In this document: positions 16,013-24,368 of the stretch, piece by piece
Layout: every line of letters begins with the position of its first letter
How positions within the stretch are numbered: position 1 is the first letter of the stretch
Assembly: GCF_019801605.1 (NCBI RefSeq)
Contig: NZ_JAHVIT010000001.1
Location: 868,001-932,000 of the forward strand
Origin: Maritimibacter alkaliphilus
Lineage (GTDB): Bacteria > Pseudomonadota > Alphaproteobacteria > Rhodobacterales > Rhodobacteraceae
Reading direction: 5' to 3'
DNA: 64,000 nt
Notes under the pieces: model-generated
Told to the model about the DNA's origin: nothing
What the model saw: the letters and a program-made list of their open reading frames with translations, nothing else
Database searches by the model: none
Position numbers and translations under genes: made by a program

Positions 16013-16412
16013 CTTGCCTGATCCTTCACTGTGACTACCCGTGGCCGCCTTTGCAGCCGATGCCTTTCGGCTTTTCATTCCTGTGAAGAAATAGTCCCGG
16101 ATCGTGGCGAAAGTTGGACCTGACCCGGGGCCGCCCTTGGGAAAACCGGCGGCATTGTCGGGGCAGCGCGGACAATGCTGCCCTGCGGCGGAAAACACGC
16201 CTTCCGGGCAACAATGTGCTGTGCTCTAAAGGTAGGGGAACGCGGGATTTTCAGGGCCCGGACCGCGGGGAGGCGCGGAATTCACCGGAACTTCACATTC
16301 ATGCCCCGATCCTGCCGCGTTGCGAGTCGCCCTCTCCGGGGGCCGGCTCAGGCCCATCGACAGGCCATGCCCCGACGACCCTCAATTCCGCAACCGTGCA
16401 AAGGGGAGGACA
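16013..16412. other. Divergent promoter region between the Tad-like unit and the dehydrogenase
   Basis: About 400 bases with no supported gene. It should carry the promoters of both divergent units. AGGGGAGGA at 16402-16410 is the ribosome site of the dehydrogenase. I see no clear operator. Confidence 0.5.
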
Positions 16413-17843
16413 ATGCACATATTCCAGGAACCCTCATTCCGCGACTCCGTGGACCTGATGTTCAACCGCGCCGTGGCGCTGATGGACCTCGAACCTGGGC
16501 TCGAGGAGAAAATCCGCGTCTGCAATGCGACCTATACCGTGCGCTTCGGCGTCCGGCTGCGCGGGCAGATGCATACCTTCACCGGCTACCGCTCGGTCCA
16601 TTCCGAACATATGGAACCGGTCAAGGGCGGCATCCGCTATGCGCCCGAGGTGAACCAGAACGAGGTCGAGGCGCTGGCGGCGCTGATGACCTTCAAATGC
16701 GCCCTCGTGGAGGCCCCCTTTGGCGGCTCCAAGGGCGGGCTCTGCATCGATCCCCGCGACTGGGAGGAGCATGAGCTGGAGCGGATCACCCGCCGCTTCG
16801 CCTATGAGCTGATCAAGCGCGACATGATCAACCCGGCCCAGAACGTGCCCGCCCCCGACATGGGCACCGGCGAGCGCGAGATGGCCTGGATCGCGGACCA
16901 GTACGCGCGGATGAACACCACCGACATCAACTCCCGTGCCTGCGTCACCGGCAAGCCGCTGAACGCCGGCGGCATCGCCGGCCGGGTCGAGGCCACGGGG
17001 CGCGGCGTGCAATACGCGCTGCAGGAATTCTTCCGCCACCCCGAGGACGTGGCCAAGGCCGGTCTCTCCGGCACGCTCGACGGCAAGCGGGTGATCGTTC
17101 AGGGCCTCGGCAACGTGGGCTTCCACGCGGCCAAGTTCCTCTCGGAGGAGGACGGGGCAAAGATCATCGGCGTGATCGAACGGGACGGGGCGCTCTACAA
17201 CCCCGGCGGCATCGACGTGGCCGCCCTGCGCGACTGGCTGGTGCGCCACGGCGGCGTGGCGGGCTTCCCCGACGCCACCCACACCGCGGAAGGCGCCGCA
17301 GTGCTGGAGGAGGAGTGCGATATCCTGATCCCCGCCGCCCTCGAAGGCGTGATCACCATGGAGAACGCGCCCCGGATCAAGGCCCCGCTGATCATCGAGG
17401 CCGCCAACGGCCCGATCACCGCCGGGGCCGACGACATCCTGCGCAGCCGCGGCACGGTGATCATCCCCGATCTCTACGCCAACGCGGGCGGCGTCACGGT
17501 CTCCTACTTCGAGTGGGTCAAGAACCTCAGCCACATCCGCTTCGGCCGGATGCAGCGCCGCCAGGAGGAGGCCCGCCACCAGCTCCTCATCGACGAGTTG
17601 GAGCGCCTCTCGCGCGACAGCGGCATCGGCTGGACCCTGAGCCCGGGCTTCAAGGACAAGTACCTGCGCGGGGCAGGGGAACTGGAGTTGGTCCGCTCCG
17701 GCCTCGATGACACGATGCGCACGGCCTACCAGTCCATGCGCGAGGTCTGGCACGCCCGCGCCGACGTTCCCGACCTGCGCACCGCCGGCTACCTCGTCTC
17801 CATCGACCGGGTCTCCGCCAGCTACCGCGCCAAGGGGCTCTGA
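16413..17843 (+). CDS. gdhA: Glutamate dehydrogenase (Glu/Leu/Phe/Val dehydrogenase family)
   Basis: 476 aa. The substrate region PVKGGIRYAPEV..TFKCALVEAPFGGSKGG contains the conserved lysines of glutamate dehydrogenases. NVPAPDMGTGEREMAW and the Rossmann motif VQGLGNVGFHAA follow. It interconverts glutamate and 2-oxoglutarate with NAD(P). The cofactor is not decided from sequence. The ATG at 16413 has a strong AGGGGAGGA site and the upstream open frame is not needed. A hairpin element of the dispersed family begins 53 bases after the stop, and the integrated element follows. Confidence 0.88.
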   Translation: MHIFQEPSFRDSVDLMFNRAVALMDLEPGLEEKIRVCNATYTVRFGVRLRGQMHTFTGYRSVHSEHMEPVKGGIRYAPEVNQNEVEALAALMTFKCALVEAPFGGSKGGLCIDPRDWEEHELERITRRFAYELIKRDMINPAQNVPAPDMGTGEREMAWIADQYARMNTTDINSRACVTGKPLNAGGIAGRVEATGRGVQYALQEFFRHPEDVAKAGLSGTLDGKRVIVQGLGNVGFHAAKFLSEEDGAKIIGVIERDGALYNPGGIDVAALRDWLVRHGGVAGFPDATHTAEGAAVLEEECDILIPAALEGVITMENAPRIKAPLIIEAANGPITAGADDILRSRGTVIIPDLYANAGGVTVSYFEWVKNLSHIRFGRMQRRQEEARHQLLIDELERLSRDSGIGWTLSPGFKDKYLRGAGELELVRSGLDDTMRTAYQSMREVWHARADVPDLRTAGYLVSIDRVSASYRAKGL

Positions 17844-17896: not shown

Positions 17897-17966
17897 CATC
17901 CACTGTTCCGAAATATCCTCGGGGGTGAATTGCGCGCCCGCGCGCAAGAGGGGGCAGACAGCCCCC
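17897..17966 (+). repeat. GC-rich dispersed hairpin element, copy B
   Basis: In the sense direction of gdhA: ATCC..TTCCGAAATATCCTCGGGGG, a GCGCGC hairpin, then GGGGGCAGACAGCCCCC (17950-17966). It lies downstream of the gdhA stop in the same relative orientation as copies A, E and G to their genes. The attachment site of the integrated element begins 13-17 bases further on. Confidence 0.75.
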
Positions 17967-17978
17967 GCGCGCCATCGC

Positions 17979-18026
17979 CGGATTGCAAATCCGTGTACAC
18001 CGGTTCGATTCCGGTACTCGCCTCCA
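17979..18026 (+). other. 3' half of a tRNA-Cys (left attachment site)
   Basis: The sequence from CGGATTGCAAATCCG to the terminal CCA at 18024-18026 is the anticodon arm (anticodon GCA), variable loop, T arm (CCGGTTCGATTCCGG) and 3' acceptor strand ACTCGCC-T-CCA of tRNA-Cys. The matching 5' strand GGCGAGT and D arm are absent upstream, so this is not a functional tRNA. The integrase gene ends 60 bases away. Such a 3' fragment is what tRNA-targeting elements carry as their attachment site. Confidence 0.85.
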
Positions 18027-18086
18027 ACGTTTTCAAAGGCTTAACGCGAAGTGCGCCAAAGCCCCTGAAAAAGTCTAAGCAAAAGT

Positions 18087-19100
18087 CTAAACATTCTGTT
18101 TTTGTTCTGTTCTCATCCGCTGCGCTTGGATAGCCCTCAGACGCTGCCGAACCTTCTTGGTGTAGTGCAGCACCATGGCCGGGCTCTGGCCCGTCACGGC
18201 GGCGATCAAATCATCCTCGCAACCCGCTTCCAGAAGCTCGCAGGCTGCGTTGTACCGCCACGAGTGAATGTCATAGTCGAGCGCCCCGATCTTCTTGCGA
18301 ACTTCACGCACGGCGTGTGACGCACCGCGATAGGACCAAGAGTTGGTCCCCCGCTCATTGGTCACGATGAAGACCGAATTGCGCTTGGCGACGTCGAGCG
18401 CCGCTTGCAGCTCCGGCAGGATCGGAACCCAGAGAACTTTCTTGGTCTTGTTCTGCTGAAGAACGATGGCGCCCTCCTGAATGTCGGACCAGCGCATTTC
18501 GAGAACGTCCCCGATCCGCTGGCCAGTGCAGACGCAGAGCTCCATCACAAGCCGTTCCCGCGTCCCGAGCGGGCACGTCTCGCGGAAGGCGTCGAGCAGT
18601 TCGCGTGGCCAAGGCTCTCGCTGTTTCACCGCCTCCGACTTGAGCTCTGCCACACCCCGTGCCGGGTTGGTCTCCCGCCAGCCCAGATCGACGCAGTGCT
18701 CCATGAGGACCCGGAGCACACGCAGCGAGTAGTTGGCGAAGTAGACCTTGTGGGCGTTGCTGTCGCGCATCCGGATCACGTCCTTGCGCTTCATCGCCGC
18801 CGGGTTGGCGTCGCCCATGATCGAGACGAAGAACTCCAGGTACTTGTCATAGTCCAGCGCCGTGCGCGTCTTGAGCCGCGCGTACTTGGGGGACTTGTGG
18901 TAGATCTTCACCAGAGCCCGGAAATTGCGGGACGTGACCCGCTGTGGCTTTTCCTTACCACCGAGAATATCGGCGTATTCCTTCCAGAACTCAGGAGAGC
19001 CGAATTCGTTTTTGAATTTCTGAGAGGCCCAGCCCCGGCGTTGAAAATAGATGCCGTTGCGCTGGCGATAGACGTACTTGGGAAGCTCACGTTTTGCCAT
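18087..19100 (-). CDS. Tyrosine-type site-specific integrase
   Basis: 337 aa. Residues 50-150 form the SAM-like core-binding domain. The catalytic domain shows Arg195 in CTGQRIGDVLEMRW, a Lys near 220, His279-x-x-Arg282 in DIHSWRYNAA and the nucleophile Tyr313 in LHYTKK, so all key residues are present. It should integrate and excise the element at the tRNA-Cys-derived repeats. The stop is next to the left attachment site. The start overlaps the stop of a small upstream gene by 14 bases. Confidence 0.93.
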   Translation of the reverse strand: MAKRELPKYVYRQRNGIYFQRRGWASQKFKNEFGSPEFWKEYADILGGKEKPQRVTSRNFRALVKIYHKSPKYARLKTRTALDYDKYLEFFVSIMGDANPAAMKRKDVIRMRDSNAHKVYFANYSLRVLRVLMEHCVDLGWRETNPARGVAELKSEAVKQREPWPRELLDAFRETCPLGTRERLVMELCVCTGQRIGDVLEMRWSDIQEGAIVLQQNKTKKVLWVPILPELQAALDVAKRNSVFIVTNERGTNSWSYRGASHAVREVRKKIGALDYDIHSWRYNAACELLEAGCEDDLIAAVTGQSPAMVLHYTKKVRQRLRAIQAQRMRTEQKQNV

Positions 19101-19260
19101 GGGTCATATCGATCCTATCAAATTCGTCGTCCTGTTGCTGCCCGAGCAGCACGAGCGAAATCTTGCGACCATCAATGGTCACGGCCCTTACCGCCCGACC
19201 CGAACGCTCAAAGGCTTCGAGAAGGCCGAGGGCCTTTTGCTCAATGCTTGTCGCTGCCAT
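19087..19260 (-). CDS. Small protein preceding the integrase
   Basis: 57 aa from ATG 19260 (GGTGAGAAG upstream); a GTG at 19305 would give 72 aa. The sequence MAATSIEQKALGLLEAFERS..VRAVTIDGRKISLVLLG resembles small proteins often found coupled to integrases in Rhodobacterales elements. A directionality role is only a guess. Its stop overlaps the integrase start, so the two are translationally coupled. Confidence 0.6.
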   Translation of the reverse strand: MAATSIEQKALGLLEAFERSGRAVRAVTIDGRKISLVLLGQQQDDEFDRIDMTHGKT

Positions 19261-20309
19261 CTTCTCACCAACTAGAACGTCGTCATCTACGCCGGGTTTG
19301 CGCACCTTTCTGGGTGAATGAGCACTGGGCGCTCATGCAAACTTAGCTTGTAGGATCGAAGGTAGCCTTTGGCGGAATCTCGGACAAGAATCTGGACGAA
19401 ACTTAGCGTCTAGGCTCCACAAGGTGTCACTAAACGCATAGGTAAAATCGCGTAAGTGTAGCAACAGTATACGAAATTCGCCCACAATCGGCAACAAATA
19501 ACTTGCCAATCGGACAGATCTCCGACAACCCTCACGCTCAGGAGCGATCCGTATTCGTATCGCTCAAAAGTGACACCGACGGCTGCTCGCCCGGTCAAAA
19601 CCCAAAGTTCGAACAGCGTCTTGGTGTCACTAAATGCATATTGGAATAAATGCATATTGGAACAAGGGGTACGTATGCTGCCCGCCTCCCGCCCCCTCCG
19701 ATGTGTATGTCTTCGGGGGCGAGAGGCTAGCGTTGCGCGTATTCGCGGACGCTGGGTCGTGTTGCGAGGGCTCGCTAACGCGCCCCAGCGCGGCCTCTCT
19801 GGGTCAATCGGCTCGCTTATCGGAGCCTCGCTGCGTGTTCGTCATCTTGCGCCCTTTGGCGGGCGCTGTGCTGAAGCTAAGCAAGACCGGCGGTTGCGTA
19901 CATGCGAACGACACCTGCTGAAACAAGAGGCAAGGCCCGAGCTCTTGAGAAACCTTGCCTGGTCAAACGGCGGGAATGCGAACTCCTCTGCTTAGCCCCG
20001 CCCCTAGCTTGCAAGAGGCATTCGGCTCTATGCCGACCTTCACGCTAGGCGCCGCGTACGACCTATCCCCAGCCAGAGCTAGACGTCAGATAGTCCGTTG
20101 AATGGCCAAGAGCGCTTGCGCATCGGGGGGAGGACGCTGACCTTAGTCGCAATCCAAATCGCGATGTGAGGAGACGTCACCCAAATGATTGATACAACTT
20201 GTGCTTCAACTGTAGACTAGTGCAAATGGCGGTCACCGAAATCCTGCGTCCGTGGCGCGTATCGCGCAAGGGTATTTTACGACCATAAACTAAATTCATG
20301 TGAGGCAAT
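19261..20309. other. Long non-coding stretch of the element, with repeats
   Basis: About 1 kb with no convincing gene. It contains two copies of GGTGTCACTAAAYGCATA exactly 200 bases apart (19423-19440, 19623-19640) and a perfect 16-bp tandem duplication (19631-19662). AAACTTAGC..TAGG-like words also occur near 19338 and 19400. It may hold the element's regulatory region or integrase arm sites, or be decayed. Confidence 0.45.
19631..19662. repeat. Perfect 16-bp tandem duplication
   Basis: TAAATGCATATTGGAA occurs twice head to tail. The first copy overlaps the right-hand member of the 200-bp-spaced GGTGTCACTAAAYGCATA repeat. Confidence 0.85.
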
Positions 20310-22106
20310 GTGCTGTATCGGTCTATTGAACACTGGGACAATCCAGAAGAACGTGAGCTCCTGATCTTCTTTGCTCAACGAATGGACGAACTTGCGTTTG
20401 AATACACGCTGGACAGCCACAGACCTCCGACCACCACTCCGCCAACGTTGGTAGGTGAATGCCTCGATGCATTGCAATACTCTATGAACAATGAAAAGGC
20501 ACTTCCCGGAGCATTGCACTTGATAGATGAACTCGAGGCCAGGATGCGCGGAAACATAGTCATTCAAGACCTGGTAAGCATAGATCAAGATAGATTTTTC
20601 AAGGTAGACAAAAAATCTCCAGTCGAGATGAAAAAGGTCCTGGCGGTCCTTTCGGGCGAGCTCAAACAGTATCCATATGCAGTAAAGTGCTTTCACCTTA
20701 TTCAGGAGATTCTACAGAATCCTGGGGGCAGTAGGAAAAATGATCTCGACTTCCTTTGTCGAGAATTGATGGCGTCCCTTATCAACCTGGGATTGAGCTC
20801 TCAATGGATTCATCGCTCTATTCTAAAGTTCTTTTTCGAAAACCCTGTCCCCGGGGAAGTCGATATGAGGGAGTTCTGGGAGGGTATCTTCCCTCATACT
20901 CACTCATTTCGTGTTGTAACGCCGGTATCCTCCAAGGCGCACCTAATCGAAGAAGGGTATCTTGGCGCCTTTGGCGCAAAGATACTAGATAAGGACAGCA
21001 TTGATGATCACGAAGAAGAGATCAATGAATTATGTGCGGACAACTTTCAGCGAGTGATAATTTCTGAAAACGTTCAGGCGAAGGATCCATTCGCGGCAGT
21101 GGAAGAGGCTAATCACAAGATATCCAGGCTTCATCATGTGTACGGCCTGTTCAATCATAAGAACGAGTTAAGTATAGGCGAAAAGTCATTTGTTATTCAA
21201 AAATGCTGCGCCGAGAACTCGGGAGCTTATTCGAACTCTGTTAATAGAATGCAGTTCGTGCGTGACAAGTTACCGAACCGTGCTGCAAGGGCGATGGAAA
21301 CCATGATGAAGCAGGTGAGGTTTCCTGCTGGTCCTGACAGGAAGAAGTTTTTTAACGCAGTCAGCTTTCATGGCATGAGCAACAATGCCACGTCTGTTGA
21401 AAATCAACTTGTTAATATCTGGACAGCCTTAGAGACCATTGCCCCCGAGGCTTATTCCGGCAGTACAATTTCAAACGTAACCCAAGGCGTATTGCCATTT
21501 ATTGGCCTGAATTACATGAGCAGGCTTACTCGCTGCCTGCTTGGAGATGTATTGAGGTGGAATCGCAAGGCAGGATATCAGATAATTAAAGCTGCAGAAT
21601 GTGGCGCTGGAGACAATCTCCTTCAACAGTTCTATTGCCTTCTGGCACTCAAGGGCAACGAGCCTCTACTTCAGGAGCTGTTTAATAGGATGGAAAATTT
21701 TCACCTTTTGCGATATAGAGCCTTCTCGCATCGCGAAGTAATAAAATCGCGCCGGAAGACGCTTAAGGCAATACTGGATCATGAGCAAAGAGTGGCGTGG
21801 CAGATTCATCGAATTTACCGTACGCGAAATCTAATTGTCCACCGTGGTCAGCTCCCGACTTTCGCCAAGACACTCGTCGTGAATGCCCATGACTATTTCG
21901 ATCAGGTTTTTGAATTGACGTGCGCGCTGGGTGGTGGCGATCAATATTACGACACGTACGAAGATTGCTTCAACTATATGGAGATGCGCTACAAGAAGTA
22001 TAAAGACGACCTATCGAAGGGTGGTGAAATCTCCGCCGAAGATGCCCGCTTAGCTCTCTGGTTCCCACCGGAGGATATTGATCACAGGACACTTTTGCCA
22101 CATTGA
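20310..22106 (+). CDS. Large protein with C-terminal HEPN RNase motif, putative phage-defence effector
   Basis: 598 aa, starting at GTG 20310 with GAGG four bases upstream. Residues 1-350 match nothing I recognise. The C-terminal part reads like an ApeA-type HEPN domain: IWTALETIAPEAYSG early in the domain and RNLIVHRG at residues 506-513. That gives the R-x4-H catalytic motif (Arg506, His511). HEPN proteins of this type cleave RNA in abortive infection. No membrane segments are seen. Base composition is much lower in GC than the flanking chromosome, indicating transfer. HEPN call good, defence role inferred. Confidence 0.72.
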   Translation: MLYRSIEHWDNPEERELLIFFAQRMDELAFEYTLDSHRPPTTTPPTLVGECLDALQYSMNNEKALPGALHLIDELEARMRGNIVIQDLVSIDQDRFFKVDKKSPVEMKKVLAVLSGELKQYPYAVKCFHLIQEILQNPGGSRKNDLDFLCRELMASLINLGLSSQWIHRSILKFFFENPVPGEVDMREFWEGIFPHTHSFRVVTPVSSKAHLIEEGYLGAFGAKILDKDSIDDHEEEINELCADNFQRVIISENVQAKDPFAAVEEANHKISRLHHVYGLFNHKNELSIGEKSFVIQKCCAENSGAYSNSVNRMQFVRDKLPNRAARAMETMMKQVRFPAGPDRKKFFNAVSFHGMSNNATSVENQLVNIWTALETIAPEAYSGSTISNVTQGVLPFIGLNYMSRLTRCLLGDVLRWNRKAGYQIIKAAECGAGDNLLQQFYCLLALKGNEPLLQELFNRMENFHLLRYRAFSHREVIKSRRKTLKAILDHEQRVAWQIHRIYRTRNLIVHRGQLPTFAKTLVVNAHDYFDQVFELTCALGGGDQYYDTYEDCFNYMEMRYKKYKDDLSKGGEISAEDARLALWFPPEDIDHRTLLPH

Positions 22107-22566
22107 CCATTTATTAATTTGAATTGCGGATTTTTTATCTCCATTCTCAACATTGGGCGCTCGCATGTTCATTGGGACGGCGAACCTTTGTAGGTGCGGT
22201 CGTTAGAGTTCCCGACGGCGCAGGTCGGCTCCGGGCTGCTCGCCTTCTCACACCACGGTTTGCGTCCATCGACTTTCTAAAGGCAGCTTCCTGCGCACCG
22301 CTGCCGTTTGTCTCGGACGCAGCTAAAGACGGCTCTCCGCCCATTGAAGCTTGGCCAGACGTATATCATCCGCGCAGAGGCATGAACGTCAGCCAGGAGG
22401 GGGCGAGAGCGCTTCTTGACTTGGCTCATCTTATTGGGCCGAGCAAAGCGTCTAGGTATGACCGTCATGATGCCATCCCAGTAGACCTTTGCAACCTGAC
22501 ACACCTGAACCGCACGCTGTCGTTTCGAATGAGGAACCAGCAAAGGGAAGGTCGTAAAGGCTCAAG
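22107..22566. other. Gap between the HEPN gene and the convergent nuclease gene
   Basis: About 460 bases. A plus-strand frame of 152 codons is open at 22124, but it starts 18 bases after the HEPN stop without a good ribosome site, has no family-like pattern and runs into the nuclease gene. I treat it as chance or remnant sequence. Confidence 0.45.
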
Positions 22567-23256
22567 TCAACTTCCATTGTAGGCGATCAATTTCTCGGGG
22601 TAAGAAAAAAAATAGACCACATCGAAACCCTTCAATGAGAGTGGATAGCTACTTTCAAGCTTCAGCTTACCGCTATTGGAAGTACGATTGGAGACAACCA
22701 AAAGACGAACATCCCTGAAAGACTCGCGGTAAGTTGCGAGCTTCTCGGATTTCTTGTCTACTACTTTCTGAAGTAGGGAGCCGTCTCGAGAGACCCAACC
22801 GACACAATCTTTGACGAATACCCATTGATGATTTATCGCTCTCCCAACGAAAACCTTTGCGCTACTCAGATGAATTTCAATCTTGGGATCGGTTACTTCC
22901 AGCGTCTCGAGTGGAGCGTTCAGAAGGGCTGCAACGAGTTCGTTCATGGATTTAACGGTCGCGTCCCCGAGGTAGTCCAAGCGAAGAATTAGACCCGTTT
23001 CACTTTCATAATCGCGCCTCGCACGGTCCAATAATTTTCGGTTGTGAATTTCAGTTGCGCGCCATGATGAACCTTTTCTACCTAGAATGCCGATATGGCA
23101 CTCAGTAACCTCCAATCCGAATTCCAAACCGTTACACAAAACCGAAAAGTCAGGCCGCTCGAAGCGCTTGAGCTTCCAATCAACATTTAGTTCGCGAGCA
23201 GCAAGACGTGCCCAGTTTTCCTCCTGCCTCTTTTGCAACTCTAACCTGTCCGTCAC
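22567..23256 (-). CDS. PD-(D/E)XK-like nuclease of the integrated element
   Basis: 229 aa, starting at GTG 23256 with a strong AAGGAGG site. Residues 34-52 read RPDFSVLCNGLEFGLEVTE, the Asp then Glu-x-Thr/Glu arrangement (Asp36, Glu49) of a PD-(D/E)XK core in which Lys is replaced. Later segments (KIEIHLSSAKVFVG, FVKDCVGWVSRDGSLLQKV) fit a small restriction-like fold. It is convergent with the HEPN gene inside the same element. It could be a second defence nuclease or part of one system. No methyltransferase accompanies it. Confidence 0.58.
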   Translation of the reverse strand: MTDRLELQKRQEENWARLAARELNVDWKLKRFERPDFSVLCNGLEFGLEVTECHIGILGRKGSSWRATEIHNRKLLDRARRDYESETGLILRLDYLGDATVKSMNELVAALLNAPLETLEVTDPKIEIHLSSAKVFVGRAINHQWVFVKDCVGWVSRDGSLLQKVVDKKSEKLATYRESFRDVRLLVVSNRTSNSGKLKLESSYPLSLKGFDVVYFFSYPEKLIAYNGS

Positions 23257-23718
23257 TGCACCCTCCTTGGAGTTGGCTGCTAGCCTCAGTTCTTATTCGT
23301 AAAGAATCAGAGTGAAGCTAAGCCTCTAGGTTGAAAAATCCAAACAAACGGCGACTTGAGCAGAGATTCGGTCGGTCGACACTTCCCAGTCAGGAAACTT
23401 GATCGCAAGTTGCACTTTCTGCGCACTCCTGCCGTTGGTCTAGAGTGCAGCGAACGCCCGCTTCGCGCCCATCGTGTTGGCGCGCAACGTCATGCTGTGA
23501 CTTCATAGAGTGGCCGCAAAGCTACGGGTGCACTCGTTCACCAATTTCATGCTCTGGCCTATGGAGAAGTGGCAAACTGCATTCTGGAGTGTGCGGGTGG
23601 CAGGGCCAGATTGTAAGAAACATCACCGGAAAGCGGTCTAGGCATTCTCGGTTTGTCCCGCCTCATCTGTGGCCACATCTAAGATATTTACCAATTAATA
23701 ACATTAACTTACAAAGTT
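23257..23718. other. Right end of the element, non-coding
   Basis: About 460 bases before the right attachment repeat. No supported gene. It contains GAAGCTAAGCCTCTAGG near 23312, similar to AAACTTAGCGTCTAGG near 19400. An AT-rich tract lies just before the attachment repeat. Confidence 0.45.
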
Positions 23719-23736
23719 TTGCAAATCCGCGTACAC
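23719..23736. other. Right attachment repeat
   Basis: TTGCAAATCCGCGTACAC matches 17983-18000 in 17 of 18 bases. Unlike the left copy it is not followed by the T arm and acceptor strand of a tRNA, so it represents the original chromosomal target sequence. Confidence 0.75.
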
Positions 23737-23750
23737 ACGCCCGCCACCCC

Positions 23751-24368
23751 TCACCGGTCCGGCGGCACCAGTCCCAGCCCGCGCAGGTAAATCCCGATCC
23801 CTGTCTCCAGCAGATCCTCCGGCGAGAAGGGGGAGCGGCCGCCGGCGTTGCGGGCGTAGAGCTCGACGACGCCGTGGCTCATGGCCCAGACATGGGCCGA
23901 GAACATCGAGGCCGGTGGCCTGCGATCGGGGGGAATGAACTCGGAGAGGTCGGCGGCCGCCTGTTCCAGAACGCCGCGTGCCCGGGCAGAGACCGCCGCC
24001 AGTTCGGGCGTGCGGTTCATGGAGATGCCGCTCTCGAACATGGCGATATAATGCCCGGGATACTTGCGGGCGAAAGCGAGGTAGGCGCGACCCGTGGCCT
24101 CGAAGGCCGAGAGCGCGGAGGGCTGGCCGCTGTCATAGGCGTACTGGATGACGTCTGCGAAGATCTCGTAGCCCTGGCGGGCGGCCTCGGCGATCAGGTC
24201 CTCGCGGCCCTCGAAGTGGCGGTAGACCGCGGCAGGGGTGACCCCGGCGAGCTTGGCCGCCTCCGAGAGGGTGAAACCGGTGGGGCCCTTTTCCTCGATC
24301 AGCTCCAGCGCCGCCTCCACCAGCGCCTGCCGCAGGTTGCCGTGGTGATAGCCGCGTTTCTTATGCAT
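23751..24368 (-). CDS. TetR-family transcriptional regulator
   Basis: 205 aa. The N-terminal helix-turn-helix region ([40 protein letters not shown]) is typical. The C-terminal half is the ligand/dimer domain with [12 protein letters not shown], seen in a broad TetR subgroup. It is translationally coupled to ppk2, its ATG overlapping the ppk2 TAA by 8 bases, so the two are co-transcribed. The ligand is unknown. Confidence 0.9.

Follow-up and report, generated by a model that had tools for sequence, protein, structure and literature searches.

The element and its genes

In a 64,000-nt stretch of the Maritimibacter alkaliphilus genome (contig NZ_JAHVIT010000001.1, positions 868,001 to 932,000; the window from here on), we analysed an AT-rich element of about 5.7 kb (5735 bp) that carries a tyrosine integrase gene, an ApeA-type defence gene and a gene for a putative nuclease. 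The original prediction, made from the sequence of the window alone, had described a compact phage-defence carrier bounded by an 18-bp direct repeat. The repeat is present at both ends, on the forward strand at 17984-18001 (integrase side) and 23719-23736 (cargo side), and constitutes a real pair of attachment (att) cores, although its copies are near-identical rather than identical (one mismatch, 17/18). The segment is also AT-richer than the chromosome, as had been stated: GC content in 500-bp windows is 0.45-0.63 between 18000 and 23499 versus 0.63-0.74 outside, with a value of 0.60 where such a window spans the right end.

The integrase-side copy lies within the 3' half of a tRNA-Cys gene (17979-18026), whose 5' half is absent. 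The same genome contains a second element (L018:4947-10827) at an intact tRNA-Cys, which is flanked by a perfect 44/45-bp far copy of the tRNA-Cys sequence, codes for an integrase 99% identical to that of the window element, and carries as cargo a 947-aa NACHT protein (PF05729, E 3.5e-10), not ApeA. The location of the left copy in the tRNA-Cys 3' half, together with the perfect copy at the intact tRNA-Cys, argues that the window repeat is not due to chance. Since the tRNA-Cys 5' half is missing in the window, whereas the relative is found at an intact gene, the window copy occupies a secondary, non-tRNA site.

The predicted integrase gene was confirmed: the 337-aa protein (18087-19100, minus strand) matches PF00589 (E 1.4e-15) and a PHROG integrase (2.5e-37), and aligns with its family. 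Its start is overlapped by a 72-aa ORF (19087-19305, minus strand), which possibly codes for an excision or control factor; in 46 of the 48 loci described below (L084-L131), the integrase has a relative of this ORF next to it. The repeats AAAAGTCTAAGC / AAAAGTCTAAACATTC at 18069-18096 (plus strand) may serve as integrase arm sites, as similar words occur near the ends of other elements, and an arm-like repeat GTCTAGGCATTC is found at the cargo-side end (23636-23647, plus strand). Among five window ORFs scanned against PHROGs, only the integrase gave a clear match, and no satellite-specific packaging or capsid-remodelling genes were detected; the weak matches were those of a 229-aa ORF to a family of unknown function (0.0029) and of ApeA (0.17).

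A family of related elements at tRNA-Cys

Integrase relatives at E<=1e-80 are present in 15 of 295 genomes of the same family, including the window genome. Scanning of genome contigs with eight aligned integrases yielded 44 loci, mostly from organisms whose names we take to belong to the Roseobacter group, and scanning of viral contigs added four more. Both att copies are present in 30 of the 48 loci, and L106 has the far copy while its integrase side is a contig end. The 30 loci and the two elements of the window genome make 32 two-ended elements, and 33 catalogued elements with L106. The remaining 17 loci either run into contig ends or lack a second att in the sequence at hand. Of five with long flanks, four have their next att copy at a distance of 18, 38, 45 or 164 kb and the fifth has one only on a different contig; some of these distant copies are probably unrelated. 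Phage and plasmid collections contained no integrase of more than 60% identity.

What is fixed in the family is a module consisting of the 72-aa ORF, the tyrosine integrase, att ends matching tRNA-Cys, arms and a non-coding block, while the cargo varies. The integrase and the paired att at tRNA-Cys in the relatives indicate site-specific integration, with a secondary site used in the window. Absence of the tRNA 5' half is seen elsewhere too, namely in four (L085, L086, L101 and L128) of the 38 integrase-side junctions that were read in other loci; the integrase-side junction of L094 is cut by a contig end. In L044 and L053, integrase relatives were observed at non-tRNA junctions beside genes that look phage-like by eye, as if next to a prophage.

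An origin-like block shared with roseobacter microviruses

Between 0.3 and 0.9 kb upstream of the integrase, the elements have in common a non-coding block that contains a hairpin, a CTTG and the motif TATGCRTTTAGTGACACC or a variant of it, frequently with a second motif copy. In the window, all of these parts are found on the minus strand: the motif TATGCRTTTAGTGACACC, as found upstream of microvirus rep genes, at 19623-19640; CCCCTTGTTCC, with a nick-like CTTG in the position common to microvirus origins, at 19659-19669; the hairpin (GCCTCTCGCCCCC...GGGGGCGGGAGGC) at 19684-19727; and a second copy of TATGCRTTTAGTGACACC, without the nick-like CTTG, at 19423-19440. A 16-bp tandem duplication (about 19641-19656) separates the window motif from the CTTG. 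Thus, the earlier statement that the element has no replication genes is correct as to genes, but an origin-like block is present in cis at 19620-19745. The hairpin covaries in 27 aligned element sequences (taken from matches to model R1, introduced below, and from the window), 11 of the 15 predicted pairs showing compensatory changes.

A distant blastn search with the window block against phages returned six weak matches (E 0.8), four of them to Roseobacter single-stranded DNA (ssDNA) phages of 5.4-5.6 kb and two to the same Gordonia phage. In one such phage, CRPss-151, the motif lies about 20 nt upstream of rep, and the order of hairpin, CTTG and motif is the same as in the elements. It is because of this place upstream of rep that we regard the block as a putative origin. 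The CTTG would be the nick site, given its position and its likeness to the phiX174 origin. CRPss-151 to CRPss-155, roseobacter Microviridae that we propose as the helper type, have the hairpin, the CTTG and the TATGCATTTAGTGACACC motif as in the elements and a unit of 5.4-5.6 kb. These phages encode Rep, capsid and metallopeptidase with no annotated integrase. In the elements, by contrast, none of the phage proteins tested is encoded: in a tblastn search of five CRPss-151 proteins against the 33 elements no homologue was found, the single match at E<=1 covering 41 aa at 0.20.

An 18-mer scan of viral contigs (IMG/VR) recovered 55 contigs, compared with one for the reversed pattern. Of these, 52 encode a CRPss-151-like Rep and/or capsid, L176 is an element contig, and L151 and L169 have neither. 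Among the 295 same-family genomes, the exact motif occurs at three sites, all within elements, with none for the backward control, and a host-derived origin of the motif was rejected on that ground. By blastn, 23 of the 33 elements match phage origins at E<=1e-3, the best being L128 (80% identical over 94 nt, E 8e-17), while the match of the window amounts to a 21-nt identity.

Covariance models were used to examine the block as a whole. Model R1 was built from 24 phage origins and includes the 18-mer by which these phages were selected. In the window it matches at 19617-19673 (E 4.8e-6) and 19417-19463 (E 0.015). In 51 further loci (822 kb) there were 50 matches at E<=1 (best 5e-16), 48 of which lie on the integrase strand, upstream of that gene, the other two falling in the 18-mer-preselected L151 and L169; of the 33 elements, R1 found 31 at E<=1, and 29 when the threshold was E<=0.01. 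In a control of 24 loci of our own choice (243 kb), 11 matches at E<=5 were obtained: two fell in L053, where a relative of the integrase is present, and the other nine in contigs that had been preselected by a partial motif. As R1 shares the 18-mer that picked its phages, a second model, R2, was built without it from 22 phages, the two most divergent phages of alignment A2 (L158 and L179) being left out of A4. In its scan of 49 loci (800 kb), R2 gave 16 matches at E<=2, each of them coinciding in place with that of R1, with a best E of 4.9e-11 and ten at E<=0.034, and in a filter-free scan of 5.9 kb it ranked the window origin first (11.4 bits, the next being 7.4). By the 18-mer, R1 and R2 alike, the elements and the proposed helper have a cis sequence in common, the window (E 4.8e-6 with R1 and 1.4 with R2) being one of the weaker origin matches.

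Element length

The 32 two-ended elements measure 4927-7953 bp with a median of 5638, and 30 of them fall within 4927-6049 bp (mean 5551, SD 288); the window element was counted as 5735 bp, and L106, which meets a contig end on its integrase side, was left out. Contigs permitting, a second att would be visible as far as about 9 kb upstream of the integrase, so the search by itself does not impose the upper limit. These lengths fit the genome size of microviruses: CRPss phage genomes are 5409-5632 bp long, and the units of the nine helper-type contigs that end in terminal repeats measure 5398-5669 bp.

In the 30 elements, the cargo coding length, taken roughly as the sum of ORFs of 150 aa or more, is anticorrelated with the remaining length (r = -0.84). 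When the two parts were randomly re-paired the SD was 696 compared with the observed 288, and none of 20000 shuffles was as tight; with all 32 elements, including the oversized ones, 22 of 20000 were. In the integrase region of one oversized element (L128, which carries SIR2-HerA), an ORF resembling an IS110 transposase by eye was noted at L128:7792-8835. Without such an insert, L128 would be near 5.5 kb.

Cargo of the window element and of the family

The 598-aa ORF (20310-22106, plus strand) and the convergent 229-aa ORF (22567-23256, minus strand) are both present as predicted, but the suggestion that they form an unnamed pair is not supported: the first of them is ApeA, and that family has been described and its structures solved. 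The protein is homologous to Ec2ApeA (PDB 9hxi) over its full length (E 1.9e-59 over aa 1-575) and has in common with it the sequence RTRNLIVH, the HEPN motif being of the R-x4-H type; the PADLOC ApeA profile matches as well (E 2.1e-9). It is distant in sequence from the E. coli protein and, unlike it, is carried on a putative satellite. Used as a query, ApeA found no relative in the genome-contig collection and none in phages, and of the 81 plasmid records matched none contained 80% of the query at a single place, the best E being 2e-4.

For the 229-aa protein, Pfam, PADLOC and NCBIfam returned nothing convincing, a query of viral contigs gave no match, and a single-sequence structure model was uninformative (mean pLDDT 32). 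The earlier assignment to the PD-(D/E)XK nucleases is therefore not confirmed; the one hint of such a nuclease is a PDF...FGLEVTE-type motif common to four aligned homologues. Relatives of 32-40% identity occur in three of 384 other genomes of the same class and in seven Zymomonas plasmid records; on one of these plasmids, pZM36 (L204), which has phage portal and terminase genes, the relative adjoins an Abi-family gene. Among 385 genomes of the class, four have ApeA relatives and four have relatives of the 229-aa protein, with only the window's own genome having both, and a 70%-identical ApeA in another genome has unrelated neighbours, with no gene for the 229-aa protein among them. Between the two genes, a 152-aa ORF (22124-22582) has no relatives in the loci compared and is probably not a gene.

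In the family as a whole, the description as a defence carrier proved stronger than had been claimed, since some 18 different defence systems, known or candidate, are carried by the relatives. As the family scans were made with the integrase, the cargo did not choose the elements. PADLOC was run on one to four cargo ORFs, usually the largest, of each of the 33 elements (five of them via twin loci of the same contigs), and gave a best E<=1e-6 in 22 and E<=1e-10 in 19. The latter comprise SIR2-HerA (three times), HEC-06/Orf5, Olokun, DRT UG5, a HEC-01 type, PARIS in split and fused forms, type II restriction-modification (RM), Dazbog, MmeI-like RM, type II CBASS, retron I-C, PDC-S73, Septu, PDC-S06, DRT UG9 and Dsr1, where the PDC and HEC labels denote candidate systems. 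Three elements fall between 1e-10 and 1e-6 (ApeA in the window and L102, PDC-M66A in L105), and four between 1e-6 and 1e-3 (L094, L118, L124 and the NACHT element L018 of the window genome). SNase-like (thermonuclease) ORFs lie beside other cargo in L102, L103, L106, L109, L110, L111, L116, L119 and L124; Pfam confirmed those of L045/L106, L048/L110 and L103, and the others were judged by eye from ORF starts.

Proposed satellite lifestyle and alternative explanations

A microvirus-like origin, the length of a microvirus genome and the lack of microvirus genes are together what a satellite should look like, and our assessment, at a probability of about 0.8, is that the window element is one copy of a family of integrating, defence-carrying satellites of roseobacter Microviridae, dependent on the Rep and capsid of the helper. 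Its main features, the microvirus-like origin and the microvirus-sized DNA, are not visible from the window alone. The elements would probably hitch-hike by being packaged by these tiny ssDNA phages. Upon infection by a helper, the integrase, perhaps with the product of the 72-aa ORF, would excise a circle of 5-6 kb. The helper Rep would then nick the CTTG beside the hairpin and start rolling-circle synthesis, and the resulting ssDNA circle would be packaged in the helper capsid, which would thereby fix the length of the element. In a new cell the circle would become double-stranded and integrate at tRNA-Cys. The cargo may pay its way by blocking other phages; in the window, ApeA, as a HEPN protein, is expected to shut down infected cells via RNA cleavage. 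The secondary, non-tRNA site and the short duplication in the origin suggest that the window copy itself may be stranded.

Several results weigh against this reading. The phages behind R1 and R2 were chosen by the 18-mer of the elements, and the motif part of R1 is therefore no independent evidence; without the 18-mer just 16 of 49 loci match at E<=2. In the 64-kb window, the sole R2 match at E<=10 lies in the right place (19657-19745) but is weak (E 1.4), and the R1 alignment there skips the hairpin. L098 and L103 have no origin detectable by R1, and those of L110 (E 0.013) and L116 (E 0.11) are weak. The origin model matches L104 and L115, yet one has to go 38 and 18 kb, respectively, to reach their next att-like copies, while the integrase relatives L125-L127 and L131 (65-66% identity) have neither origin nor second att in the available sequence. 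In viral contigs, patterns for two other origin variants found no phages, a looser third pattern found 10 contigs, none with CRPss-type proteins or an integrase, and an attP-type scan returned one contig, an element already known, and no virion-borne or circular copy. Two of the 32 two-ended elements are oversized (6856 bp in L128, and 7953 bp). Finally, seven of the 33 elements (L096, L103, L109, L110, L112, L114 and L119) gave no PADLOC match at E<=1e-3 in the ORFs scanned; Pfam assigned TPR-PIN, STAND/AAA, SNase, acyltransferase or phosphoesterase domains among these seven, and nothing to the tested L114 ORF.

That the origin motif is common with the microviruses and often present in two copies, and that the cargo is largely defensive, would also be expected if the elements were decoys whose origin copies titrate the helper Rep and so protect the host, the elements themselves moving by other means. 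We regard this as unlikely, because such a decoy leaves unexplained why the total length stays near the microvirus genome size with compensation between cargo and the rest, and why the hairpin and the CTTG are kept alongside the motif. It seems rather improbable that the elements are ordinary integrase-driven defence islands whose origin is a relic of past recombination with a microvirus and whose size is coincidental. An integrase and a tRNA site are typical of islands, and transfer is itself inferred; yet a relic would hardly keep a hairpin with compensatory changes in 27 aligned sequences, nor would coincidence account for a narrow size range across many unrelated cargoes. The proposal of the original prediction that ApeA and the 229-aa protein make up a new two-gene defence system, attractive in that they are neighbours on one small element, is highly improbable given that the genes are convergent and not an operon, that neither the 70%-identical ApeA nor any other of the 385 genomes searched repeats the pair, and that solved ApeA entries are listed as single proteins. 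Gene transfer agents had also been considered as the carrier; at about 4-4.5 kb they are too small, and the idea was dropped when the origin match came to light.

Surroundings of the window copy

In the nearest relative of the window genome (G680, 94% over the left flank), both junctions of the window site are present, on two separate contigs, and in place of the window cargo the cargo side at the same site encodes a protein with an HSDR_N domain together with a RiboL-PSP HEPN protein. An empty counterpart of the site was sought in relatives and not obtained, the flanking genes there (a dehydrogenase and a TetR-like gene, named by eye) being far apart or on different contigs. The flanking genes of the window (16320-17843 and 23751-24368) are neighbours across the element here; in two members of the genus they are about 180 and 218 kb apart, and in other members they sit on different contigs. 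A rearrangement at the window locus is therefore likely. Just left of the att, there is an intergenic repeat (17900-17967) with about 40 places in the window genome among the matches listed, and with many in the genus.

Relation to known satellites and significance

Satellites of the P4 and PICI types carry an integrase together with defence cargo. In the window element, by comparison, the integrase is the only clear PHROGs match, and the proposed helper is an icosahedral ssDNA phage. According to the portions of a satellite review that were available, P4, PICI, cfPICI, PLE and PICMI are, as proposed here, chromosomal helper-dependent elements, those of tailed phages (PMC11389934). The same portions name pDolos for single-stranded DNA phages and RS1 for a filamentous phage; these inovirus satellites likewise rely on ssDNA phage helpers, but the helpers are filamentous, pDolos is a plasmid, and no capsid-fixed size with a swappable defence slot is described there (PMC11389934). 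The Charybdis elements are also small, circular, marine and of uniform size, with some beside tRNA genes; as far as the available part of their description goes, they differ in being about 4.6 kb long, in having an archaeal host and their own putative structural genes, and in that no microvirus origin is mentioned (PMC12324425).

Among the matches listed in our search of the open-access literature, no microvirus satellite was described, and searches there for tRNA-Cys or single-system defence islands and for CRPss phages gave no description of these elements. The phage satellite as a kind is thus already known, and what would be new is the helper, the capsid-fixed size and the cargo slot for one system. 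We consider it likely, with somewhat less confidence than the satellite reading itself, that these are the first recognised satellites of Microviridae: an integrase, a small ORF and a copied origin, travelling as ssDNA in microvirus capsids and forming a capsid-sized exchange network by which defence systems spread singly among the roseobacters. The second Rep-site-like motif, which lies upstream of the integrase operon, may allow them to sense the helper Rep.

For the discovery of defence systems, cargo located between the 72-aa ORF and the far att of a 5-6 kb element is a candidate in its own right; in seven of 33 elements the scanned ORFs are PADLOC-negative. The elements also offer a testable route by which single defence systems may move between bacteria, with capsid volume as a physical reason for the size of the carrier. 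If this is true, Microviridae would be added as a helper family to the phages known to be parasitised.

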